Translations under genes and position numbers: made by a program
The notes under the pieces: generated by a model
Told to the model about the DNA's origin: nothing
The model's input: the letters and a program-made list of their open reading frames with translations, nothing else
Databases searched by the model: none
Shown here: one piece after another, positions 3,282-19,535 of the stretch
How positions within the stretch are numbered: the first letter of the stretch is position 1
How the letters are laid out: each line of letters begins with the position of its first letter
Source of the DNA: an uncultured Brachyspira sp.
GTDB lineage: Bacteria > Spirochaetota > Brachyspiria > Brachyspirales > Brachyspiraceae
Direction of reading: 5' to 3'
Length of the DNA: 64,000 bases
Assembly (NCBI RefSeq): GCF_944388875.1
Contig: NZ_CALXKQ010000002.1
Span: forward strand, 62,001 to 126,000

Positions 3282-3761
3282 ATGAAATTTGTAAAACAAA
3301 ATAAATTAACTATTATACTAATATTCATTATAATTTCTTACATATTTTATAATGATTTGATAAAAAATAATAATAAAAACTTAGAAAACAATATTCATAA
3401 ATTAAACTATATAGAAAATAACTATATTATAGAAAATAATTATAATACAGACTCTGATATTAAGTATCAAAACATAAGAAGATACAGAGATGTTGATCTT
3501 GACCTTGAAGAAGATAGAGTATTTATTATGTTTATAGGTTCTCTGATCATAGGTTTTTTACTTAGTCTTATATTATTATCAAAAAATAAATTTTCTAAAA
3601 AAGAATTAATTACTGCCAAAATAATACTCATTTTATCTGTTATAATTACAGGGATAATTATTTTTATAAATTATGAGAATATAAAAAACATATTAGAGTA
3701 TTTATCTTTACCTATAGGTTTTATAATAGGCTTTGTATTGGGAAGATTATTATTTAAATAA
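3282..3761 (+). CDS. small membrane protein, paralogue of 4104..4685
   Basis: This 159-aa protein matches no family I know. An N-terminal membrane segment (about residues 9-25) is followed by an Asn-rich extracytoplasmic stretch. Next comes an Arg/Asp-rich motif, IRRYRDVDLDLEEDR, and then three more hydrophobic segments. The next gene on this strand has the same plan: an IIIS-IFY first segment, an IRR-to-EED motif and a hydrophobic C-terminal half. The two therefore look like diverged tandem duplicates. The ATG has only a weak GGAA upstream. Codon use is extremely A/T-rich. The function is unknown. Confidence 0.6.
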   Translation: MKFVKQNKLTIILIFIIISYIFYNDLIKNNNKNLENNIHKLNYIENNYIIENNYNTDSDIKYQNIRRYRDVDLDLEEDRVFIMFIGSLIIGFLLSLILLSKNKFSKKELITAKIILILSVIITGIIIFINYENIKNILEYLSLPIGFIIGFVLGRLLFK

Positions 3762-3994: not shown

Positions 3995-4103
3995 ATATTA
4001 TTTTATTAATACACTATCTAGGTACTAACAAATAACTTGAAATAAAAATCAATTTATGATAAAAATGTATTATTTGCTTAAGCATTTTTTTAAAGAGGTT
4101 TAT

Positions 4104-4685
4104 ATGAAGATTAGTATATTAGCGGTTGTATTAATTATTATTTCTTTTATATTCTATACTGAAATGACAAAACATAATTATAATGTATATAATGTGAATG
4201 TAATAGAAGAAATTGAAGAAAACATTATTTATAATGGTAACTATATAGTAAGTGATAATGATATTATTTTAGAAAATGGTTATGATTTTAATAATAGTAT
4301 AGAAATTAAAGAAATTCGCCGCAGCTACCTCAGATGGAGAGATAGAGAGCATCCTAATGTAGATTTTGAAGAGGATTCAAAAGATTTATATGTGAGATTA
4401 ATAATAATATTTACGATTGGATGTGCTATTATAGGTGTTTTAATGGAGATACTATTTTTTAAAAACACCTCTTATAAATTTTATATTATTCTACTTGCAG
4501 TAATTCTTGTAATAAGTTCGGTTATTATTTATAAAATACATGAAAACTTGGCTATATTTAATATGGATGGAAGTACAGAAAGCATATTAGAATTATCAGC
4601 TTTCTTTTGCGGCGGTATAATATCATTTATAGGATTATTAATTAGTAAATACCTTAGATCTAAAGATAATAAAAAAAATAATTAA
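4104..4685 (+). CDS. small membrane protein, paralogue of 3282..3761
   Basis: This is a 193-aa protein of unknown function. The frame opens at 4056, but I prefer the ATG at 4104 because AGAGG sits eight bases upstream and the protein then begins with a clean membrane segment (MKISILAVVLIIISFIFY). After an acidic extracytoplasmic stretch comes RRSYLRWRDREHPNVDFEED, the counterpart of the motif in the upstream paralogue, and then three more hydrophobic segments. The shared order of first segment, Arg-rich motif, EED and hydrophobic C-terminal half supports common descent. The tail is Lys/Asn-rich. No enzymatic motif is visible. Confidence 0.65.
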   Translation: MKISILAVVLIIISFIFYTEMTKHNYNVYNVNVIEEIEENIIYNGNYIVSDNDIILENGYDFNNSIEIKEIRRSYLRWRDREHPNVDFEEDSKDLYVRLIIIFTIGCAIIGVLMEILFFKNTSYKFYIILLAVILVISSVIIYKIHENLAIFNMDGSTESILELSAFFCGGIISFIGLLISKYLRSKDNKKNN

Positions 4686-4831: not shown

Positions 4832-5281
4832 CTATTTTGATTTTCTCTTTTCAATTCTTTTAATTATATAAATAATTACAATTGTAAATAAGATGAAAAT
4901 TAATCCTATAATTATATACTCTTTTAATGTAATATCCCCGAATAAAACCGAAGCAAAAAGATTGTTATATCCTAATAATAAGTCAGCAATATTTTTTTTA
5001 GCAGATAAAGTTGATTTTAAATCATTAGTATAATTATTTGTAATGTTTTGATTGTTCATAGCTGTATCATTTATAGTTTTAGGGGCATTAAAAAATGATG
5101 CATATAAAAGTATAAGAAAAAATACAAAAGCAGCAATTAATGTCTTTTTTATATTATCTTCATTTAAATTGAATAATGCCGTTATAACACCAATGGCTAT
5201 AAATATATATTCATAAGTATTTTCAATGTATTTTATTATAAAAAATCCTGATACTCCAAAAAATGCTATTAGTTTGGGCAA
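4832..5281 (-). CDS. small membrane protein of unknown function
   Basis: This 149-aa frame has a coherent membrane-protein composition. Hydrophobic segments lie near residues 20-40, 48-65 and 120-142, with an Asn-rich loop between the last two and a Lys/Arg-rich tail (IIKRIEKRKSK). The only start in frame is TTG at 5281, with a GAGA-like site very close upstream, so the start is uncertain. The gene is divergent from the helicase gene, leaving about seven bases between the two start codons if the helicase begins at 5289. Any promoter for the helicase operon must then lie inside this gene. No family is recognised. Confidence 0.5.
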   Translation of the reverse strand: MPKLIAFFGVSGFFIIKYIENTYEYIFIAIGVITALFNLNEDNIKKTLIAAFVFFLILLYASFFNAPKTINDTAMNNQNITNNYTNDLKSTLSAKKNIADLLLGYNNLFASVLFGDITLKEYIIIGLIFILFTIVIIYIIKRIEKRKSK

Positions 5282-5288
5282 GTTCTCT

Positions 5289-8200
5289 ATGATAATAAAA
5301 GAAATGTCATCTAAACCTTCAGAAAAGGAAGTAGAAGAATTAAATAAGCAGTTACAAAATAAAAAAGAAAAAGGAATTGATTTTAAAGTACCTGAAAATT
5401 TTAAAGAAGATATAGAAGCCGTTTCTAATAATCCTTATTTTATAGAGATGGCATTTGAATTAGATGAAGATACTTTAGATGATATAAAAGACAGAGATTT
5501 ATCAAAAGAAGAAATAAGGCAGTATGTTTATGACAATATATTTAAATATTTTAATGATGACGGTTTTATAGCATTATCTGCAGTAGGTGATTTTGTATTG
5601 ATAAGAAGACTTAGAGAATCAATAGCAAGTCTGGAAAGAGATGAGGGATACTGTCCTAATCTGGCATTATGGCTTTTTGATATTTCAAAGGCAGAAAGAC
5701 CAAATATTAATAGTGTAAAAATAGATAAATGGCTAAATAAATCAATAGAAAATAACAGAGAACAAAATATTGCTGTAAGAAAAATGCTTGCCGCTAAAGA
5801 TGTTTGTCTTATACAGGGACCTCCGGGTACAGGAAAAACTACAGTTATAGCTGAGGCAATATATCAATTTGCTTTAAGAGGGGAGAGAGTATTAATAGCT
5901 TCTCAGACAAACTTAGCGGTTGATAATGCATTAGAAAGACTAGCAAAAGAGCCTATTATAAGGGCTATAAGACTTAATGCTCAAAAAAGCACAGATGATA
6001 TAGCTCACATGACTGAAAACAAAGTATTAAGTTTTTTCTTTAAAAATATATCTGACAAATTAAAAAATGAATACTTAAATAAATGGGAAGCAAGCGAGAA
6101 ACTTGTAAATAATTTGGATTTATATTTAAGAGATATTAATCAGTATACTTCAAGAATAGAACAGCATAAAAAGCAATTAACTAATTTGAATGAAGAAAAG
6201 GATAGACTGAATAATCAGATAAATGATATTAATGAGAAGATTAATAATGTAAAAAATAAAAATAATGATTTAAACAGAATAAAACATCAAATTAATCTTT
6301 TTAATAAATTTATAAAAGAAAATAATGATACAGACTTTGTACTTCCTAAAGATTATATTAACTTAATATTAAATAATATAAATGATAAACTTTATTCTTT
6401 AGAGAATATAAAAATAGATTCTATTAATATTAATGATAATATGTCAGAAGATATACTTACAAAAGGCGTAAAAGAAATATATAAAAATATTAATTATTTT
6501 TATGAATTAAAAGAAAATATAGCATCTTCCAGCGGTATTGAAAAATCTCCTGAAAGTATACTTTTAGAAAGACAAATGAATGAGATAAAAGATAAAATGA
6601 ATGATGCTGATATATCTGATGATGATTATGATAAACTTTCAAAAGAGTTTAGGAAAATTAAAAAAGAGATATCTCAATTAAAAAACAATAGTTTTGAATT
6701 GAAAGAAACATATAAAGCATTATTAGATGAAAGTATAATAAAAGAATATAATGATACTAAAAATACTAATATTATAAAAGAATATATAGATAAAAATGTT
6801 TCAAAAATAGAGAAAATAAAAAATGTATTTAATAATATAGAAGAATATTCCAATAATTATAAAGATTCATTAAAAGCAGAAGACGTAAAAGAAATTGAGA
6901 ATCAATTAAAAACAGCACAGGGAAGAATAAAGACAATAGATAAAGAAGAGGAAAATTTAAGAAACAGCTTAAATGAAGACTATAAAAGAATAAGAAATAT
7001 AAAAAGAGAAACTAATATTGCTGAAGATACTCCCAATAATGAAATATATAATTTGTTATCCTCAAAAAGAGATGAAGCTAAAAATATTTTAGAAAATCAA
7101 AAAGAGTTTAGAGATAAATTTGGTTCTTTTATAAAAGATTTTAATGAAAGATTAGAACATGTAGATATTAATTATGAAAATGAATATTTTAAAGATACAT
7201 ATATAAACTCATGTAATGTAGTAGGTATGTCATGCACAGAAAATATAAAAACATTAGAAGATAAAGGCTTTAATGCATTTGATGTTGTTATAATAGATGA
7301 GGTAAGTAAAGCTACACCGCCTGAATTGTTAATGCCTATGCTTAGGGCAAAAAAAGTAATACTTGTAGGCGACCATAGACAGCTTCCTCCTCTTTTCGGA
7401 GAATATGAAAAATCGTATAAAGAGATTATTGACACTATAGAAGATACTGATGAAAACAGACAAGTAAAAAGCATTCTTACAGAAGAAAATTTTAATAAAT
7501 ATGAGAATATGGTAACCTCTTCAATATTTAAAACTTATTTTGAGCAGGCTCCTCAAGAAATAAAGCATTCATTATTAACACAGTTTAGAATGCATAGCGA
7601 TATTATGGAAATAATAAACAGATTCTATGAAAACAGATTGAATGCTGGTATTCCTAAAGATAAAGAAGGTACAGCTAAAGATCATCAATTAGAAATAAAA
7701 AGAACAAACGGACTTTCATTTATTAAAAGAGATAGGCATGCATATTGGATAGATTCTTCCGAAATAAAATTATCTCAAAATCAAAGAAAGCCTATATATG
7801 AATCAACAACTCAGACAAGCACCTCTATTCATAATGTACTTGAAGCATATATAGTGATAGAGTTATTAAAGCAAATAGCTTCAGAATATAAAAAATTGAA
7901 TTTAGAAGAAAAAGTTCAGGTTGGTGTTATAAGTTTATATCAGCTTCAGGTTAATAAAATAAGAGCTATGTTAAAAAATGAAAGAAGGAAATTTGATTTT
8001 TCTGCTATAAATATAGATATTAATACTGTTGACAGATTTCAGGGTAAAGAAAAAGAAATAGTAATAGTAAGTTTAGTAAGAAATCCGCAAACTGGAAAAT
8101 CAAAATCTAAACATATTACTGCTTTTGAAAGGGTAAATGTTGCTTTTTCAAGGGCACAGAATGCTTTAATAGTAGTAGGGGCAAAAAATATGTATGAAAA

Positions 8201-8375
8201 ATTAGATGTTGAACTTCCTAATATGAATAGAAAAGGAATAACAAAAAGAAAAGTATATAAAGAAATCCTTGAATATTTAAACATAAATGCCTGCATTTTT
8301 GAAAGCGATACTGTAATAGATTATAAAAGAGCAAATACAATATTAAATGAATATAACAGCAGTTCTAAAAGATAG
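5289..8375 (+). CDS. superfamily 1 (Upf1/DNA2-like) helicase with long coiled-coil insert
   Basis: This is the first gene of a five-gene operon, 1028 aa from the ATG at 5289. The frame is open to 5226, but that part overlaps the divergent gene, and an ATG at 5304 is also possible. The helicase motifs are complete: Walker A GPPGTGKT (177-184), motif Ia SQTNLAVDNAL, motif II DEVS (670-673), motif III GDHRQLPP (694-701), motif IV QFRMH, motif V VDRFQGKEKE and motif VI NVAFSRA. This order fits the AAA_11/AAA_12 helicases that include Upf1 and DNA2. Between motifs Ia and II lie roughly 400 residues of Lys/Glu/Asn-rich predicted coiled coil, far longer than the usual 1B insertion. It should unwind RNA or DNA with ATP. 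Its target is unknown, and the nuclease gene follows after 25 bases. Confidence 0.85.
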   Translation: MIIKEMSSKPSEKEVEELNKQLQNKKEKGIDFKVPENFKEDIEAVSNNPYFIEMAFELDEDTLDDIKDRDLSKEEIRQYVYDNIFKYFNDDGFIALSAVGDFVLIRRLRESIASLERDEGYCPNLALWLFDISKAERPNINSVKIDKWLNKSIENNREQNIAVRKMLAAKDVCLIQGPPGTGKTTVIAEAIYQFALRGERVLIASQTNLAVDNALERLAKEPIIRAIRLNAQKSTDDIAHMTENKVLSFFFKNISDKLKNEYLNKWEASEKLVNNLDLYLRDINQYTSRIEQHKKQLTNLNEEKDRLNNQINDINEKINNVKNKNNDLNRIKHQINLFNKFIKENNDTDFVLPKDYINLILNNINDKLYSLENIKIDSININDNMSEDILTKGVKEIYKNINYFYELKENIASSSGIEKSPESILLERQMNEIKDKMNDADISDDDYDKLSKEFRKIKKEISQLKNNSFELKETYKALLDESIIKEYNDTKNTNIIKEYIDKNVSKIEKIKNVFNNIEEYSNNYKDSLKAEDVKEIENQLKTAQGRIKTIDKEEENLRNSLNEDYKRIRNIKRETNIAEDTPNNEIYNLLSSKRDEAKNILENQKEFRDKFGSFIKDFNERLEHVDINYENEYFKDTYINSCNVVGMSCTENIKTLEDKGFNAFDVVIIDEVSKATPPELLMPMLRAKKVILVGDHRQLPPLFGEYEKSYKEIIDTIEDTDENRQVKSILTEENFNKYENMVTSSIFKTYFEQAPQEIKHSLLTQFRMHSDIMEIINRFYENRLNAGIPKDKEGTAKDHQLEIKRTNGLSFIKRDRHAYWIDSSEIKLSQNQRKPIYESTTQTSTSIHNVLEAYIVIELLKQIASEYKKLNLEEKVQVGVISLYQLQVNKIRAMLKNERRKFDFSAINIDINTVDRFQGKEKEIVIVSLVRNPQTGKSKSKHITAFERVNVAFSRAQNALIVVGAKNMYEKLDVELPNMNRKGITKRKVYKEILEYLNINACIFESDTVIDYKRANTILNEYNSSSKR

Positions 8376-8400
8376 ATAATAAATATAGAGGAAATAATTT

Positions 8401-10854
8401 ATGGAAATATCATCAATATCTTTTTCTAAGCCTTATATTAAATATGATTCTATTGTATACCATTTTACATCAAGAAAATCTATTGCTATAGAATGGGTTA
8501 TATTAGAATTAATAAACAGATATAGTAATGATAATGAATATGGCTCTATATCTATTAAAACAATACTCGAGAATATGCTTTTTATACCTGATACAGATTC
8601 TTTGGTACTGCCTTCTATTATAGAATTAATTAATTTAAGAGCTTTAGAAAGCGATTTTTATATAAACGAAAATACATCTTTAAGCAGTATTTCTTTATCT
8701 CAAATAAGGCTTACAGATTCAGGAAAAGAACTTCAGGCAAAAGGATTAATACCGGGAAAAGAAGCAGAGGACATTGTTTCTTTTATTTATGATATAAGTG
8801 AAAATATATTTGAATTATATGATGATAAACTTAAATTTGATAATTCTCCAAAAGGTATAAAATTGGTAGAATATGACGATGATGACGAAGAAGATGACGA
8901 TGATGATGATGAATATATATTTGATTTTAATAAAGCTAAATCAATATTAGAAGAATTAAAAAATAAAAATAAATTCTCTTGGCTTCAGCCTACATCAGAA
9001 ATAAGGGATATTGATAGAGGCGATATTCAGGTTCTTTGGAGAAATTTTAATGACAGAATAAATTTACTTGAAGACGGCAAAATAGAATTAAAAGATAAAA
9101 AAAATGATGATGATTTTAATAAATTACTAATAGAAAATATAGATAGTGTAGAAACATTACAAAACAATTATGATGATGATTTAGACTTATATGATTTTAA
9201 TTACAATAATTTCTCTAAAATACTTAATATATATGAAACTTCAAAAATTGATGAAAAATTAAAAAATATATTAGGCAGTAAAGATTTTGTTATAGTAAAT
9301 AAAAAACTTTATCAAGATGAAATAAAAATAAGTTCTAATCTTTTATTGGTATTCGGAAGCGATGATTTTTCTATAGATATAAAAGATAAAAAAATGACTT
9401 TATATATTGAAGATGATATGATATTAAAAAATTGTATAGCATTAAACAAAGATAAAACTAATGTATGTATATCAAATTTCAGAGTTCATAATGATTTCGG
9501 AGATGGTGTTATTAGTTTAGGATATTCTATTTCTCATCAAATTGATTTTAATGAAATTGTTTCAGAGTTAATAAATAAATACCAGATAAAAGATGCAAGG
9601 ATATTATTGATATCTTTAATTATAGGAGGAATTGAAGCATTCAGAAATAATGTTTTGTATTTGTTTAATATAATAGAAAACTTTGATGATGCTTTAAACT
9701 TTATATCAGATATTATTAATAATGCTAAAGCGTTAAAATTAGATGATAATCAGGCTAAAAATATTCTTAATCATATACTTTCAAACAATAAAAAAGTTAA
9801 TGATACAAAAACTATAAACTTATTAATAGCGTATTTGATGCCTATAGTTAATAGTAAAACACTTGATAATAATTCAATTTCAAAATTATATTTAAGTATT
9901 ATTAAAAGAAATAATATAAAGTCTTTAGATTATAATGATTTAAATACTTTATTTGATTATCTAAAACATATAAAGGCAGAAATTAAAGATATTGACAGTG
10001 TATCTAAAAACTTATATCAGAATGCATTTATTGATATGATGAAAAAATATATGTCTGATACTAAATACAGATTTGAAGAGTTTTCATCTATAGAAAAATC
10101 TATTAATAGTTTTGCTAATAATATAAAAAGTATAGAAGAAAGTTTAAAATTAAAAATAGGAGATATTTATAATAATATATCAGCTTCATCTTTAAGTCCT
10201 AAAATAATAGAATACTATAAAACCTCTAAAGATAAGGATAAAATACTCAATAATTTAAATAATATAGATAAAATATTAAAAGATATATCATCAAAACTTG
10301 AAATTACAGAAGAAGACTTTAAAAATAATGGTATAATAAATGCAGCATTGGAGAGTATAAAGTCAGCAGTTTATAAACTTAATGATAAATCAATAAATAA
10401 TTTTACTAAAGTTTATGCTGTTGATACTAATGTTCTTTTGAATGAACCTAAAATATTTGATTATATAGATAGTAAAACTCTTTTAATAATACCAATTACA
10501 GTTATAGAAGAATTAGATAAATTAAAAGAGAAGTCAGATGAAGATATGAAATTTAAAGCTAGAGAAGCTATAAGAAATATAGAAGCTAATAATAATAAAG
10601 CAAATATAAGAAAAGAAGATTATGACAACAGCATACTTCCAGAAGGTTTTGATAAAAATAAAAATGATAATAAAATATTAGCCGCTGCAATGAAGTTTTT
10701 AGCTAAAGATGTTGTTCTTATAACAGATGATAATAATTTAAAAGTTAAAGCTGATTCTCAGAGTATAAAATATATTTCTTTAGAAGATTTTAAAAATAAT
10801 AATTTGAATAAGAAAGATTCAAATCAAAAAGATAGTAATAATAATAAAAAATAA
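8401..10854 (+). CDS. PIN-domain nuclease protein with winged-helix-like N-terminus
   Basis: This is the second gene of the operon, 817 aa. The C-terminal 130 or so residues form a PIN domain with all four expected acidic positions: Asp675 in VDTNVLL, the Glu in VIEELDKL, the Asp in NDNKILAAA and the Asp in LITDDNNLK. PIN domains are metal-dependent endoribonucleases. The first 120 residues look like a winged helix, an acidic run (about residues 158-171) follows, and the middle is a long helical region of unknown fold. PIN proteins of toxin-antitoxin modules are about 130 aa, so this is not a simple toxin and no antitoxin gene is next to it. The gap to the helicase is 25 bases and the gap to the next gene is 17. 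Confidence 0.75.
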   Translation: MEISSISFSKPYIKYDSIVYHFTSRKSIAIEWVILELINRYSNDNEYGSISIKTILENMLFIPDTDSLVLPSIIELINLRALESDFYINENTSLSSISLSQIRLTDSGKELQAKGLIPGKEAEDIVSFIYDISENIFELYDDKLKFDNSPKGIKLVEYDDDDEEDDDDDDEYIFDFNKAKSILEELKNKNKFSWLQPTSEIRDIDRGDIQVLWRNFNDRINLLEDGKIELKDKKNDDDFNKLLIENIDSVETLQNNYDDDLDLYDFNYNNFSKILNIYETSKIDEKLKNILGSKDFVIVNKKLYQDEIKISSNLLLVFGSDDFSIDIKDKKMTLYIEDDMILKNCIALNKDKTNVCISNFRVHNDFGDGVISLGYSISHQIDFNEIVSELINKYQIKDARILLISLIIGGIEAFRNNVLYLFNIIENFDDALNFISDIINNAKALKLDDNQAKNILNHILSNNKKVNDTKTINLLIAYLMPIVNSKTLDNNSISKLYLSIIKRNNIKSLDYNDLNTLFDYLKHIKAEIKDIDSVSKNLYQNAFIDMMKKYMSDTKYRFEEFSSIEKSINSFANNIKSIEESLKLKIGDIYNNISASSLSPKIIEYYKTSKDKDKILNNLNNIDKILKDISSKLEITEEDFKNNGIINAALESIKSAVYKLNDKSINNFTKVYAVDTNVLLNEPKIFDYIDSKTLLIIPITVIEELDKLKEKSDEDMKFKAREAIRNIEANNNKANIRKEDYDNSILPEGFDKNKNDNKILAAAMKFLAKDVVLITDDNNLKVKADSQSIKYISLEDFKNNNLNKKDSNQKDSNNNKK

Positions 10855-10871
10855 TATTAGGGGGTATTGTT

Positions 10872-12011
10872 ATGAGCCATAATGATCAATACTATTATGA
10901 ACTAGAAAGAAGAAGACAAGAGCAAATAGCAAGAGAGAATGCTAAAAGAGATGTAATGAATGCTATTGCAAGACATAGACAGTCTGTACAAAATATTATT
11001 AATGAAGGACTTAATAAATATGTATCCTTACAAAATATAAACATAGAAATTCAAAATATAGAAAGAATTGTTAGTTCAAATCCTTTTTCAGCAAGAGATT
11101 TAAGTTACAGAGTAGAATCTGATATAAATTATTTAAGAAATGAGGCATTAATCAGAAAAAGAGAAGAAGAAAGAATAATAAAAGAGCAAAAAAATAAAAA
11201 TAAACAAGCTGTTTTGGATTATTTCAATAAAACTATAATGAGTATAGATGATATTATTTTAATTGATTTTGCCAGAGATAAATTTGATAATTTAAGAAAT
11301 GAATTATTAAATGATGAAGGCGTTACAGACAGTGAGATGAATGTTTATAGTAAAAAAATAGAAAGCAGAGTAAAAAATATTATAGATGAAGCTAATGCAA
11401 ATGCAGGCGAATGGAGAGCAAAAAAAGAAAAAGAGAGAGAAAAAAGAGTATTGCAGACAAAAATAGAAGATATTGAAGATAATCTAAAAAAAGAAAATAT
11501 TGAAAACAAAGAGAATATTGAAAAGAGAGAGAAATTATTAAAACAGATAGAAGCAGCCAAAGCGTCTTTAAATAATGATAATGTTTCAGAAAATATTGAG
11601 AGCATAGTAAAAGATGTTGAAATAATAGATAAAGAAACAGAGGACATACGAATAACAGAAGAAGTAAGAAAAGATGTTGTAAAATCTATAATAAAATCAT
11701 TAAAAGGAAATGAGTTTGAAGTTTCAGCACCAGAACTCATAAAAGATGATAATGGAGGAATAGTAAAAATCATAGCTAAAAAACCTTCTGGAAAAAGAGC
11801 CGTTTGTAAAGTAGGACTTAATGGAAAATTAGAATATATTTTTGATAATTATGAAGGTTTAACATGCGTTAAAGATATAGATAAATTTAATAAAGATTTG
11901 GAAGAAATTTACTCTATAAAATTGTCCGATAGAAAAGTATTATGGGAAAACCCTGATAAAATATCTAAAGGTGCTTTGGATATTAATAATACAGATAAAA
12001 GAACATTATAA
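10872..12011 (+). CDS. coiled-coil protein with a small C-terminal globular domain
   Basis: This is the third gene of the operon, 379 aa, with GGGGG upstream of the ATG. Residues 1 to about 275 are Glu/Lys/Arg-rich helix with heptad-like spacing. The last 100 residues differ, with a beta-rich pattern (KIIAKKPSGKRAVCKVGL, then KLEYIFDNYEG) and a conserved-looking end. No catalytic motif is visible. In this context it may be an adaptor linking the helicase and nuclease to the AAA+ protein, or a substrate of the AAA+ protein. I recognise no named family. Confidence 0.6.
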   Translation: MSHNDQYYYELERRRQEQIARENAKRDVMNAIARHRQSVQNIINEGLNKYVSLQNINIEIQNIERIVSSNPFSARDLSYRVESDINYLRNEALIRKREEERIIKEQKNKNKQAVLDYFNKTIMSIDDIILIDFARDKFDNLRNELLNDEGVTDSEMNVYSKKIESRVKNIIDEANANAGEWRAKKEKEREKRVLQTKIEDIEDNLKKENIENKENIEKREKLLKQIEAAKASLNNDNVSENIESIVKDVEIIDKETEDIRITEEVRKDVVKSIIKSLKGNEFEVSAPELIKDDNGGIVKIIAKKPSGKRAVCKVGLNGKLEYIFDNYEGLTCVKDIDKFNKDLEEIYSIKLSDRKVLWENPDKISKGALDINNTDKRTL

Positions 12012-12023
12012 GGAGCTTTATTT

Positions 12024-13871
12024 ATGGAAGAGAGAAAAATGGATTTATGGATTGAAAGATTTATAAGAGATTCTAAATTAAAAGGCTCTGTTATTTTAAG
12101 CGGAAATTCTTCTGATATAATAAGAAACAGAAAAACTGGAAAGTATGAATATATTTCAAATTATATTATTAAACTCTTAAATGAAGAGAGTAAATTTAAT
12201 AATGTTATAAAATGGGATAGAGTTGACGGCATTGATTATGATGTTTCAAAAATATCTAATTTGACATTTGCAGAAGAGAAAACAAATCAAGCACCAAGCA
12301 ATGCTTATGATTTGGGCGATGATGATGAGATGGCAGATAATCAAAACAACAATCAAGGACCTAAATATAAAGATATAGATGAGTTTTTTAATTATGTACT
12401 TCAGCAGATAAAATCAAAAGCAAATAATAAAATTTGTTTTATTATAGATTATTCTGATTATATATTCGGCTCTAATGCTTCTTTAAGTGAAAATGAAAGG
12501 AATTGGCTTGCCATAATAGGAAAGGCTTTAAGAGAATCTATGAATTATGATATGTTTGATAATGATTTTAAAGAACAAAAAAGATGCATAATCATAATTA
12601 CAAATAAACTTTCAGCAATACCTTCATCATACTATTTAAATAATCCTGATGTAAGTTGTATCAATATACCTTCTCCAGCAAGACCAGAAAGGGAAAGTTT
12701 TATATTAAATAATGAAAGTTTAATAAATTTAGATCCGCCTTTAGATGAGAACAGAAGAAATGATTTTATAGATTCTTTGGAAGGATTTAAATTAAAAGAT
12801 ATAGCTCAGATAATGAAGCTTTCAATGCAGACAGAGCCTAAACTCAGTGCTGATAAAATAATTAATCTATATAAATACGGTGAGAAAAAAAGTCCTTGGG
12901 AGGATTTAAGTAAAAATAAATTAGCTAATATAGAAAAAACTTTAGCTTTAAGAGTAAAAGGTCAGGATGAGGCTATAGAAAAAGTAAAAGATGTAATAAT
13001 AAGAGCATTTACAGGTTTTTCTGGAATACAGCATTCAGCAAAGCAAAAAAAGCCTAAAGGAGTATTATTTTTTGTAGGTCCTACAGGAGTTGGTAAAACA
13101 GAACTTGCAAAATCTTTGGCTGAGTTTTTATTTGGTGATGAAACAGCATGTATAAGATTTGATATGTCAGAGTTTAATCATGAACACAGCGATCAAAGAC
13201 TTGTAGGGGCTCCTCCTGGATATGTAGGCTATGAGGAAGGAGGTCAGCTTACTAATGCTATAAAAGAAAAGCCTTTCTGCGTACTTTTATTTGATGAAAT
13301 AGAGAAAGCACATGGAAGAATACTTGATAAGTTTTTACAAATACTTGAAGATGGAAGATTAACTGACGGTAAAGGAGAAACAGTATCTTTTTCAGAATCG
13401 GTTATAATATTTACTTCAAATATAGGAGCTAGTCAAATAGATTACAGTACTGATAAAAAACAAGTGTATCAGCAGTTTTTAGAGCATGTAAAAAAACATT
13501 TTGTTGAAGAATTAAAAAGACCAGAACTTCTAAATAGGGTTGGAGATAATATAGTGCCTTTTAACTTTATAGATGGTGCTGATTTCCTTAATAATATAGC
13601 AAGAGGCAAATTTAAGTCTATAGAAACATTTATTAAAGAAAAATACAAAGCTGAAATAAAGTTTGAAAATGATGAGAGTTCATATTTGGCAATATCTAAT
13701 TCTGTTGATATAAAAAACGGCGGACGAGGAGTTTTAAATGTGCTTGAAAGTAAAATCGTAAATCCGCTTTCTAATTTTGTATTTGAAAATATAGATTCTC
13801 TTCAGGGAAGGACTATAAAAATAATTCAGCTTAATCCTAAAAGAGCAGATTTTGAATTTGAATTAGAATAA
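12024..13871 (+). CDS. ClpB/ClpA D2-type AAA+ ATPase with degenerate N-terminal AAA module
   Basis: This is the fourth gene of the operon, 615 aa. The C-terminal half is a complete Hsp100 D2 module: Walker A GPTGVGKT (352-359), pore loop GYVG (399-402), Walker B LLFDE (Asp424, Glu425), sensor 1 FTSNIGA, arginine-finger region RPELLNRV and sensor 2 GGRG. The N-terminal 270 residues look AAA-like but lack a P-loop. VILSGNSSDI stands where Walker A would be, IIDYS ends at Asp142-Tyr143 in the Walker B position, and IIITNK resembles sensor 1. There is no Clp-N domain and no ClpP-binding loop that I can see. It likely remodels a protein complex with ATP. One base separates it from the radical SAM gene. 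Confidence 0.85.
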   Translation: MEERKMDLWIERFIRDSKLKGSVILSGNSSDIIRNRKTGKYEYISNYIIKLLNEESKFNNVIKWDRVDGIDYDVSKISNLTFAEEKTNQAPSNAYDLGDDDEMADNQNNNQGPKYKDIDEFFNYVLQQIKSKANNKICFIIDYSDYIFGSNASLSENERNWLAIIGKALRESMNYDMFDNDFKEQKRCIIIITNKLSAIPSSYYLNNPDVSCINIPSPARPERESFILNNESLINLDPPLDENRRNDFIDSLEGFKLKDIAQIMKLSMQTEPKLSADKIINLYKYGEKKSPWEDLSKNKLANIEKTLALRVKGQDEAIEKVKDVIIRAFTGFSGIQHSAKQKKPKGVLFFVGPTGVGKTELAKSLAEFLFGDETACIRFDMSEFNHEHSDQRLVGAPPGYVGYEEGGQLTNAIKEKPFCVLLFDEIEKAHGRILDKFLQILEDGRLTDGKGETVSFSESVIIFTSNIGASQIDYSTDKKQVYQQFLEHVKKHFVEELKRPELLNRVGDNIVPFNFIDGADFLNNIARGKFKSIETFIKEKYKAEIKFENDESSYLAISNSVDIKNGGRGVLNVLESKIVNPLSNFVFENIDSLQGRTIKIIQLNPKRADFEFELE

Positions 13872-13872
13872 T

Positions 13873-14442
13873 ATGTTATTAAATATTAATAGTATAAGAG
13901 AATGTACAGAATCTGAAGGTATAGGTAAAAGATTTGCATTATGGACACAAGGCTGCATGAAAAGATGCAGAAATTGCTGTAATACTCATATGCAGCCTAT
14001 TATAAAAAAACATATAGTAAATTGCGATGATATTATAGAGCAGATACAATGCAGTAAAGAAAAGTATAATATAGAAGGCATTACTTTGCTTGGAGGAGAG
14101 CCTATACTTCAGTCTAAAGGGCTTGCTTATATATCTAAATGGTGCAAAGAAAATAATTTATCTGTAATACTCTTCAGCGGATATACTTTAGAAGAAATTA
14201 AAACAGGTAATTTTGAAGGTGCTATGGAATTATTAAATTATACTGATGTATTAATAGACGGAGAATATATTGATGAGCTTTATGATGAGGATAGGGGCTT
14301 TATAGGTTCATCTAATCAGAAAATATATTTCTTTAGTAATACATACAGCCAAAAAGACTTTGATAATTATAATGGATATATTTCTGTTGAATTTATTATA
14401 GATAATAATACCATAAAAATAAACGGCTGGCCTACAAATTAA
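13873..14442 (+). CDS. NrdG-like radical SAM / 4Fe-4S activating enzyme
   Basis: This is the last gene of the operon, 189 aa. The cluster motif CX3CX2C is Cys28-Met-Lys-Arg-Cys32-Arg-Asn-Cys35, followed by an extra Cys36. It is preceded by SEGIGKRFALWTQG and followed by the GGEP SAM-binding motif, the layout of anaerobic ribonucleotide reductase activases. Length also fits NrdG. However, no glycyl-radical reductase (NrdD) gene is present in the window, and the gene begins one base after the AAA+ stop, so translational coupling is likely. I infer that the radical acts on a partner in this operon rather than on NrdD. A housekeeping NrdG placed here by chance cannot be excluded. Confidence 0.8.
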   Translation: MLLNINSIRECTESEGIGKRFALWTQGCMKRCRNCCNTHMQPIIKKHIVNCDDIIEQIQCSKEKYNIEGITLLGGEPILQSKGLAYISKWCKENNLSVILFSGYTLEEIKTGNFEGAMELLNYTDVLIDGEYIDELYDEDRGFIGSSNQKIYFFSNTYSQKDFDNYNGYISVEFIIDNNTIKINGWPTN

Positions 14443-18106: not shown

Positions 18107-18622
18107 ATGGAATTAAAGGTATTGAATAAGCAGAATAATTCAAGAATGTGTTTAGTATGCGGATTTAAAAATGATTTAAGTTTGAAAGCCGAGTTTTATG
18201 AACTTGAAGATAAATCATTATGTGCTTTAGTAACTTTTAAAGATGTTCATCAGGGATATCCTTCCAGAGTTCATGGCGGAATACTTGCTGCTATATTGGA
18301 TGAAACTATAGGGAGGGCTATGATGCCGTACACAGGAGAGGAGAAATGGGGCGTTACTATGACTCTTACAACTAAATACAAAAAGCCTGTTCCTATTAAT
18401 GAACAAATAAGAATAGTAGGAAAAATTACATCAGGAGATGGCAGAATTTATGAAGGAGAAGGTTATATACTTTTAAATGACGGAAAGATTGCTGCAACGG
18501 CTAAAGGAACTTATCTTTGTATGGGGCTTGATAAAATAGCTGAGATGGATCCTAATAATGAAGAGGATTGGTTTGTAGAGAAAAAAGAAAGCGATCCTAA
18601 AGCTATAGATATCCCTCAGTAA
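18107..18622 (+). CDS. PaaI-type hotdog thioesterase
   Basis: This 171-aa hotdog-fold protein has the motif RVHGGILAAILDETIGRAM, typical of the PaaI/4HBT thioesterases that hydrolyse acyl-CoA thioesters. The N-terminus has a CLVCG pair before the hotdog domain, common in one subgroup of this family. The last 30 residues are an acidic tail. The gene stands alone with ACGGAGA before the ATG, divergent from the ytxH operon. The natural acyl-CoA substrate cannot be told from sequence. The Mrr gene follows after 16 bases, so the two may be co-transcribed by proximity. Confidence 0.8.
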   Translation: MELKVLNKQNNSRMCLVCGFKNDLSLKAEFYELEDKSLCALVTFKDVHQGYPSRVHGGILAAILDETIGRAMMPYTGEEKWGVTMTLTTKYKKPVPINEQIRIVGKITSGDGRIYEGEGYILLNDGKIAATAKGTYLCMGLDKIAEMDPNNEEDWFVEKKESDPKAIDIPQ

Positions 18623-18638: not shown

Positions 18639-19535
18639 ATGGCACTTTTAAAATACAGAGATTATGATAAATATGTATTAAAATTCTTCTATGAAGTAAA
18701 TAAACCAATGCATAGAAAAGATACATACGATAAATTAAAAGAGTATACCGATACATCTGATGAAGATTTCAGTATGATAACTAAAAATGGATATAATAAA
18801 TTTAATTCAAGAATTCATTGGTCTTTGGTTGTTTTAAAAAAAGCTCAGTTAATAGAAAATGTGGATAAGGGAGTTTATCAAATAACTGACTTCGGAAAAA
18901 AATTCTATGAAGAAAATCCAGATTTTGATTTTAAAACTTTAAAAGAAAAAACACCATATTTAGAAAACAGCAAAAATAATTCACATGACGATATATATGA
19001 AATTGAAGAAATAGAAGAAGATGAAAACAGAAACGAAATAGAAAAAAGCATTGAAGAGTATTATGAAAGCGTAGAAAAAGATATACTTGACAGGCTTCAG
19101 TCTATGGGAGAAAGCTCTGTTGATAAAGGCACTAAATTTGAGAATATATGCTTGGAACTGCTTGAAAAAATGGGTTATGGTAAAAAGTATAGAACTGGAG
19201 GAAGCGGAGACAGAGGAATAGATGGTACACTTACTATGGATAAATTCGGATTTGACATCATAGGTGTGCAATGCAAATGCTATAAAGAAAATAGTAAAGT
19301 TAATGATACTGAAATAACAAAATTTGCTCATGGGCTTAAAAATGTTAATGGTATAAACAGAGGTATATTTATAACAACTTCCGATTATACTCAGCAGGCT
19401 AAAAAGGTTGTAGAAGAATTAAAAGATGTAAAAATAATACTTATAAACGGATACAGACTTGCTAAATATATGCGTGAATATGAGGTTGGTGTTAGAGTTT
19501 TGGAAACTAGGAATATTTACGACATTATAATATAA
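18639..19535 (+). CDS. Mrr-type (type IV) restriction endonuclease
   Basis: This 298-aa protein has two domains. Residues 1 to about 100 are a winged-helix DNA-binding region of the Mrr N-terminal type (KYRDYDKYVLKFFYEVNKP). A Glu-rich linker follows. Residues 165-290 are the Mrr catalytic domain, with RGIDG (Asp195) and VQCK (Gln211, Lys213) forming the D-QxK active site of this PD-(D/E)XK family. Mrr enzymes cut DNA carrying modified bases and need no partner methylase, and none is present nearby. The gene sits 16 bases behind the thioesterase gene, with no other defence gene adjacent. Confidence 0.85.
   Translation: MALLKYRDYDKYVLKFFYEVNKPMHRKDTYDKLKEYTDTSDEDFSMITKNGYNKFNSRIHWSLVVLKKAQLIENVDKGVYQITDFGKKFYEENPDFDFKTLKEKTPYLENSKNNSHDDIYEIEEIEEDENRNEIEKSIEEYYESVEKDILDRLQSMGESSVDKGTKFENICLELLEKMGYGKKYRTGGSGDRGIDGTLTMDKFGFDIIGVQCKCYKENSKVNDTEITKFAHGLKNVNGINRGIFITTSDYTQQAKKVVEELKDVKIILINGYRLAKYMREYEVGVRVLETRNIYDIII

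Follow-up and report, generated by a model that had tools for sequence, protein, structure and literature searches.

A mobile five-gene operon in Brachyspira pairs a Upf1-like helicase and a PIN-domain protein with a putative radical SAM/Hsp100 control core

What is the function of an operon that places a Upf1-like helicase and a PIN-domain protein beside a coiled-coil protein, a ClpB-like AAA+ ATPase and a radical S-adenosylmethionine (SAM) enzyme? This question is raised by a stretch of 64,000 nucleotides (the window) of an uncultured Brachyspira sp. (contig NZ_CALXKQ010000002.1, positions 62,001 to 126,000), in which the five open reading frames (ORFs) follow one another on the plus strand with intergenic gaps of 25, 17, 12 and 1 bases. 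A preliminary description of this DNA had reported the same five co-directional genes and gaps, together with intact key motifs in the helicase, PIN, AAA+ and radical SAM proteins; the ORF coordinates agreed, and all of the motifs were found by motif scans and Pfam searches. The G+C content of the operon was 25%, compared with 30% for the window. The analysis below indicates that the operon is probably a member of a mobile, horizontally spread system that degrades the RNA of invaders (phages or plasmids) and is built of two halves, a helicase-effector half and a control core. The sequences establish that the operon is a unit, that it is conserved, mobile and inserted at a vacant site, what its domains are, that their motifs are intact and that its effector is exchanged; from the same material we infer the RNA target, the role in phage defense, the substrate of the radical SAM enzyme and the direction in which the AAA+ protein acts.

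The five genes were found to form one unit. Rather than being confined to Brachyspira in variable order, a possibility that the preliminary description had raised, the order helicase-gene 2-coiled coil-AAA+-radical SAM recurred unchanged in distant phyla and on plasmids. It was present in another spirochaete family (G059, L026; identity to the window proteins of 57% for the AAA+ protein, 53% for the radical SAM protein, 42% for the helicase and 38% for the coiled-coil protein), in one Clostridia-class genome (G567, L155), on plasmids of Moellerella wisconsensis and Leisingera thetidis (both conjugative), Polaromonas naphthalenivorans (pPNAP02, WP_011798091 to WP_011798095), Photobacterium toruni and Acinetobacter sp., and on a contig from a viral collection (L167/L173) that starts with two serine recombinases. 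Because all five genes recur in identical order in several phyla, the set is far beyond chance. Recombinases or integrases adjoined some of these operons. In a tree of the AAA+ proteins (45 rows), all 11 sampled five-gene copies were grouped by a branch supported at 100/100. The G059 and Clostridia copies were sisters in this tree, a placement that implies horizontal transfer.

The five-gene form was detected in 5 of the 26 genomes of the genus and in 1 of ∼290 sampled Clostridia-class genomes; the profile of its coiled-coil protein found nothing among 369, 289 and 295 genomes sampled from three further classes, samples that contained no positive control. The form is likely to be rare. When viral contigs were searched with a single AAA+ protein or with the coiled-coil protein of L167, no record beyond the known ones was returned, and the conserved alignment of the second AAA+ domain (D2) retrieved one five-gene element, L167. 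The AAA+ matches in phage genomes were mostly ClpB-like D2 domains, the effector protein (gene 2) had no match among the phage genomes searched, and no close match was found in the Escherichia coli genomes. The eight rows of the coiled-coil alignment differed too much for scanning.

The site of insertion was seen directly in relatives. In at least five genomes of the genus without the operon (G003, G004, G009, G020 and G023), a glycosyltransferase gene and a thioesterase gene are separated by 105-116 bp, and in two others (G017 and G005) the operon fills this spacer, which is now 10-11 kb long; the five-gene operon is thus a clean accessory insertion at an otherwise empty site. Stretches of 0.1-0.9 kb between the two genes in other species were considered as remnants of the operon and rejected, given that they were empty or held an unrelated ATP-pyrophosphatase-like gene. 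The window operon occupies a different place, next to an M50 peptidase gene, and the thioesterase gene (at 18107) is 3.7 kb away. Since this site differs from that of the relatives, the operon has moved.

The window helicase contains the motifs GPPGTGKT, DEVS, GDHRQL, QFR, TVDRFQGKE and NVAFSRA, as well as a large helical insert of ∼490 amino acids (aa) between motifs I and II; a spacing of ∼490-520 aa was found in most orthologues, with a shorter one in L166. Its nearest relatives in the PDB were SMUBP2, DNA2 and NAM7. The helicase is not complete: it is 1049 aa long, against 1274-1631 aa for the orthologues, and its homology to three same-genus relatives, at both the DNA and the protein level, begins only at ∼5253-5262 (blastn/tblastn). 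The N-terminal ∼247-277 residues of the same-genus orthologues (1284-1317 aa) were found neither in the window nor in the whole genome to which it belongs, and the gene is therefore truncated at its 5′ end, with ∼247 N-terminal residues missing. Upstream of the breakpoint lie unrelated small membrane ORFs. Two of them, at 3282-3761 and 4056-4685 (plus strand), have similar sequences (73% DNA identity over 48 nt, plus other short repeats) and match no Pfam family; they are probably tandem paralogues that adjoin the breakpoint.

For the protein encoded by gene 2, the PIN fold with its conserved acidic residues (DTN at D675, EELD, NDNK and TDDN) was confirmed by Pfam, structure matches and alignments. 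The best solved match of the PIN domain was human SMG6, which bears out the parallel drawn earlier with UPF1 and SMG6, and Nmd4 bound to Upf1 was also among the matches. Residues 28-104 were modeled as helix-helix-helix-strand-wing-strand, the pattern of a winged helix (AlphaFold2, pLDDT 73-90). The N-terminal region was conserved where the PIN domain had been lost or replaced, as shown by several alignments including one of nine sequences. The PIN domain proved to be optional: it was present in most five-gene operons, absent from two (L025 and L155, in G019 and G567, respectively) and replaced by a putative HEPN-like end in L167. The PIN-less genes, L155 3657-5069 and L025 9612-11696, belong to five-gene operons from genomes of different classes, and for this reason the N-terminal part of the protein probably has a separate function. 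Conflict systems typically have exchangeable toxic ends.

These matches bear on two other explanations. The first is a role in stress response or RNA quality control, in which the helicase and the PIN protein would act on stalled or damaged mRNA of the cell itself while the AAA+ and radical SAM proteins react to proteotoxic or redox stress. The nearness of the PIN domain to SMG6, the presence of Upf1-bound Nmd4 among its matches and the PDB relatives of the helicase are consistent with such a role; however, the five-gene form is very patchy in the genomes counted above, is carried on plasmids, has lost or exchanged its effector and is damaged in every copy in the genus. On balance, this explanation is considered unlikely. 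The second is a toxin-antitoxin-like or maintenance module, in which a PIN or HEPN RNase would be the toxin, restrained by the other proteins, and would guard its element and not the cell. PIN and HEPN folds are common among toxins, and the operon occurs in five plasmid lineages and beside recombinases or integrases. Against this, the module would be a large one with a helicase and an Hsp100 motor that are both predicted to be active, two of its operons have no nuclease, and chromosomal copies stand between conserved genes; the explanation also overlaps with that of defense. It is judged somewhat less probable than quality control.

The remaining three genes encode the putative control core. 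Gene 3 gave nothing significant in Pfam. Its Cys332 is invariant in the five-gene form and aligns with the cysteine of a WC pair that is 98% conserved in a sister form of the system, which carries a kinase (the kinase form, described below). The coiled-coil proteins of the two forms were found to have a C-terminal domain in common (hhalign probability 93.9%, E 1.6e-7; reversed control 0.2%); this comparison gave no match with close relatives alone and matched after plasmid orthologues were added. The N-terminus of the kinase-form coiled-coil protein, MSGPK, was strikingly conserved across phyla, being present in 23 of 59 proteins by a simple motif scan (e.g., L093 17403, L122 17041 and L156 2343).

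Gene 4 matched the Pfam family AAA_2 and, weakly, the ClpB D2-small domain, and its D2 contains the Walker A motif GPTGVGKT and the Walker B motif LLFDE. It had been described as an Hsp100 D2 module, which was correct for D2 and incomplete for the protein, given that the first ∼300 residues are a degenerate first AAA+ domain (D1) without Walker A. A model of the protein aligned over the whole D1 and D2 of ClpC and ClpB (AlphaFold2, pLDDT 83, 42 sequences). The pore loop GYVG, a GGRG motif and the motifs of D2 were nearly or fully invariant among 65 sequences; GGRG and RLTDGKGETV make up a signature of D2. Because D1 lacks Walker A and these D2 features are kept, the protein is predicted to form a ring of the Hsp100 kind in which D1 is dead and D2 is live. 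A similar degenerate D1-like domain was also observed at the N-terminus of AAA proteins whose second AAA domain is FtsH/CDC48-like (L048 9342-11129, L047 2046-3860 and L049 4790-6298), and the domain is therefore wider than the operon system.

Gene 5 matched Fer4_12/Radical_SAM in Pfam, and its CX3CX2C, GGxP and GSxNQ motifs, as well as its C-terminal glycine, were invariant in 47 homologues. A glycyl-radical partner was sought: only two RVxGY-like strings were found in all neighbor proteins of the sampled loci, and no ribonucleotide reductase or pyruvate formate-lyase (PFL) family was matched in the operon by Pfam.

When scanned with the D2 end, AAA+ relatives were found in many phyla. Partners were counted among same-strand genes in the 48 loci that had 4 kb or more of flank on each side: a radical SAM gene was present in 34, a coiled-coil gene in 34, a Hanks-type kinase in 33, an FHA protein in 19, a Upf1-like helicase in 10 and a PP2C phosphatase in 9. 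The AAA+ gene had none of these partners in ∼14 of the 48 and may represent another paralogue there. The AAA+, radical SAM and coiled-coil genes occurred together in Bacillota, Pseudomonadota, Actinomycetota, Bacteroidota, Verrucomicrobiota, Spirochaetota, Ignavibacteriota, Gemmatimonadota, Chlamydiota and Thermodesulfobacteriota. The three genes are the older, conserved core, and the helicase/nuclease half is an exchangeable partner.

In the sister form, the helicase was fused to or adjoined the kinase in at least 12 loci, and one large branch carried a fusion of ∼2000 aa of the order kinase-DUF4011-Upf1-like helicase-MTES_1575 nuclease. On an Aristaeella plasmid, the kinase form was found in the order DUF4011 helicase, kinase, coiled coil, FHA, radical SAM, AAA+ and phosphatase. 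Upstream of one kinase-form operon (L045 14431-15456), a decapeptide-repeat protein of the W-K-N-A-G-F-S type was observed. The many loci that contain the core without a helicase would suit a further explanation, namely a radical SAM pathway of peptide or protein modification in which the AAA+ and radical SAM proteins make a product and the helicase and nuclease are mere neighbors. Yet the helicase was kept in order in all 11 sampled five-gene operons and was tied to the kinase in the sister loci, and no precursor-peptide gene was seen; this explanation is very improbable.

Several copies lie near defense genes. The five-gene operon of G059 is inside a type III-A CRISPR-Cas locus, and sister forms stand beside type I-B (L045/L106) and type III-B (L116) cas genes. 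On a cyanobacterial plasmid, an AAA+ match (the only gene of the system verified there) was near genes of an anti-phage dCTP deaminase and dGTPase. The reported right flank of the Pseudomonas aeruginosa defense hotspot cDHS1 looks like the sister operon, because of its gene content and the same order in the Pseudomonas genomes L103, L156 and L157. These neighborhoods are suggestive. In G059, the surroundings of the five-gene operon and of the CRISPR adaptation genes also contain a second helicase-related ORF (L159 3-3254; 1084 aa, open at its end), and in the window a Mrr-type restriction endonuclease gene (Mrr_cat, Mrr_N) lies at 18639-19535 (plus strand), 4 kb downstream of the operon. Given the mobile and defense contexts, the helicase-nuclease machine proposed in the preliminary description is still the best reading.

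A number of observations weigh against an anti-invader function or its details. The presumed sister operon has been reported among the core genes of P. aeruginosa, which also fits a housekeeping role such as quality control. Clear defense neighbors were found in only a few of ∼40 loci, which were counted without a matched background. The near-invariant cysteine of the coiled-coil protein could have a structural role. The winged helix-turn-helix (wHTH)-like assignment of the gene 2 N-terminus depends on a model of medium confidence built from seven sequences, and the HEPN-like end of L167 carries RNSLIH, a motif that arises in 1% of shuffles, with HEPN_RiboL-PSP as a best Pfam match that is sub-threshold (E 0.14). 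Furthermore, since two five-gene operons have no recognizable nuclease, the PIN domain is not the sole output.

With these points considered, the anti-invader system may be pictured as follows. The working half would consist of the Upf1-like superfamily 1 (SF1) helicase and the wHTH-like protein with its exchangeable RNase end; the helicase would load on RNA or single-stranded DNA (ssDNA) of an invader or of stalled translation and bring the PIN RNase there. The Upf1 type of the helicase and the RNase nature of PIN and HEPN make RNA the likelier target; ssDNA is less probable, and the sister form carries a PD-(D/E)XK-type nuclease. The control half would comprise the Hsp100-type motor with its inactive D1 and active D2, the cysteine-bearing coiled-coil protein and the NrdG-like radical SAM enzyme. 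In the most likely scheme, the radical SAM enzyme would modify or charge the coiled-coil protein, with the conserved cysteine or its vicinity as the foremost candidate site, while the AAA+ ring would thread or remodel the coiled-coil protein or the effector complex and so turn the helicase-nuclease on or off. The circuit of kinase, FHA and PP2C proteins would add a phospho-switch in the sister form.

The operon was compared with known systems, of which the preliminary description had been able to name none that matched. No full match was indeed found, although partial ones were. The helicase scored 339 bits against PADLOC MkoA (PDLC03920), a likeness that is family-wide and not specific, and a weak 57 bits against the PADLOC candidate PDC-S37, without a fused nuclease. 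Membership in Mokosh type I was rejected, as there is no PLD nuclease partner MkoB: the window operon has no PLD, no NERD domain and no MkoB match, its nuclease is of the PIN_4 family, and four further proteins accompany the helicase. The giant helicase fusion that stands by the same core in the sister form scored ∼495 bits against PDC-S37 (a DUF4011 helicase of the Hhe-like kind); PADLOC, however, lists PDC-S37 as a single protein, and the core showed no dedicated PADLOC family.

A closer likeness was found to the CnuH-CnuE pair of CoCoNuT systems, in which a Upf1-like helicase, whose Walker A is followed by a long helical insert, is accompanied by a wHTH protein with an exchangeable nuclease (PMC11090510). 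In Type II and III CoCoNuTs the nucleases are HEPN or PLD, with Vsr fused to the helicase in III-B, and kinase or phosphatase genes occur in some types; that paper names neither PIN effectors nor radical SAM (PMC11090510). The window operon likewise has a long-insert Upf1-like helicase followed by a wHTH-effector gene, the wHTH part being predicted by the model. In contrast, no McrB family was found among its five proteins (the AAA+ protein is of the AAA_2/ClpB type), Pfam gave no McrC or DUF2357 match in them, and the operon adds the radical SAM enzyme, the cysteine-bearing coiled coil and the PIN effector. CoCoNuT membership was rejected for lack of a McrB-type GTPase with an NxD motif and of McrC; relative to CoCoNuT, the core of AAA+, coiled-coil and radical SAM proteins would take the place of McrBC.

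The core proteins were also compared one by one. The AAA+ protein resembles ClpB and ClpC in D2 sequence and fold, pore loop and Walker motifs and differs from them in its D1 without Walker A and its length of 615 aa; identity with ClpB was rejected on account of this D1 and a score of 279 bits, against an NCBIfam equivalog cut-off of 1232. The gene 5 product, with its CX3CX2C and GGxP, belongs to the radical SAM superfamily and shares the fold family, CX3CX2C and GSxNQ with NrdG and PFL activases, whereas the window operon contains no glycyl-radical enzyme; NrdG itself was rejected (95.9 bits against an NCBIfam cut-off of 126.1, and no partner enzyme nearby). The combination of AAA+ and radical SAM proteins is also known from FtsH ternary systems, predicted conflict systems with radical SAM effectors that are built on vWA and FtsH-type proteins (PMC7159879). 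Membership was rejected, as no vWA or FtsH family scored above cut-off in the five proteins. The pairing of a Upf1-like helicase with an SMG6-like PIN domain recalls eukaryotic UPF1-SMG6 and Upf1-Nmd4; the window operon, in contrast, is bacterial and mobile and carries the AAA+/radical SAM core, and the likeness noted here is one of pairing.

Certain parts, namely the PDC-S37 helicase, CnuHE-like pairs and MkoA-like helicases, are already known, and the core and the five-gene arrangement appear to be new: in the literature searched (mainly open papers), no paper describing either was found, and no described system was found that uses radical SAM chemistry on a protein partner as a defense switch. 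Viperin, a radical SAM enzyme, makes a nucleotide. The operon stands a fair chance of deserving the status of a new class. More tentatively, and with less confidence than the anti-invader function as such, it may represent a new class of immunity or of RNA-decay control, in which the radical SAM enzyme activates the cysteine-bearing coiled coil and the Hsp100 motor thereby switches the helicase-RNase, the three-gene core being a general switch present in at least 10 phyla with varied effectors and kinase circuits.

All five copies in the genus were damaged in some way. In addition to the truncated helicase of the window, an AAA+ frameshift was found in G017, a helicase frameshift and a radical SAM stop in G005, a radical SAM frameshift and stop in G012, and the loss of the PIN domain in G019; where a genome is a draft, its frameshifts may be errors of sequencing, but the G017 genome is a single contig. 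The copies of G059 and of the plasmids looked intact. The window copy is probably impaired. Whether it is a non-functional remnant of the system, in the course of decay, is evenly balanced: the missing N-terminal residues of the helicase, the departure of the operon from the site used in relatives and the lesions of the other four copies all point to decay, whereas genes 2-5 have kept their full length and their motifs, nothing is missing from the helicase core, translation of a shorter helicase could begin at an ATG at 5226 or 5289, and the frameshifts elsewhere may be artifacts. The coordinates are listed in Table 1.

Table 1. Coordinates of the five genes and their main features in the window, with the basis of each assignment.
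Feature	Position	Strand	Basis
Gene 1, Upf1-like SF1 helicase	5226/5289-8375	+	Pfam AAA_11/AAA_12; motifs; orthologue comparison
Helicase breakpoint	5226-5262	+	blastn/tblastn against same-genus relatives
Helicase Walker A	5817-5840	+	Motif scan
Helicase motif II	7296-7307	+	Motif scan
Gene 2, effector with N-terminal winged-helix-like domain, helical middle and C-terminal PIN RNase	8401-10854	+	PIN_4 1.3e-23; model; nine-sequence alignment
Gene 2 wHTH-like part, residues 28-104	8482-8712	+	AlphaFold2 secondary structure; alignments
Gene 2 PIN domain, SMG6-like, residues 674-793	10420-10779	+	Pfam; structure matches
Gene 3, coiled-coil protein with a conserved domain at its C-terminus	10872-12011	+	Alignment; hhalign
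Gene 3 Cys332 codon	11865-11867	+	Alignment of the five-gene form; hhalign to the kinase form
Gene 4, tandem AAA+ ATPase, 615 aa (degenerate D1 ∼1-295; Hsp100/ClpB-type D2 297-600)	12024-13871	+	Pfam; NCBIfam; alignment; model
Gene 4 D2 Walker A GPTGVGKT	13077-13100	+	Near-invariant in 65 homologues
Gene 5, NrdG-like radical SAM protein, 189 aa	13873-14442	+	Fer4_12 7.9e-30; NrdG 95.9 bits
Gene 5 CX3CX2C [4Fe-4S] motif	13954-13977	+	Motif scan

If the anti-invader reading is true, the operon would belong to an undescribed modular conflict system of bacteria, in which a UPF1-like helicase and an SMG6-like PIN domain, the pairing used in eukaryotic mRNA surveillance, are united with a radical SAM/Hsp100 switch. 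With its core in at least 10 phyla and seemingly also at the flank of cDHS1, many laboratories would already hold this nameless operon, and the near-invariant cysteine encoded by the genes beside the radical SAM enzyme offers a direct and testable chemical hypothesis for how such a switch may work.

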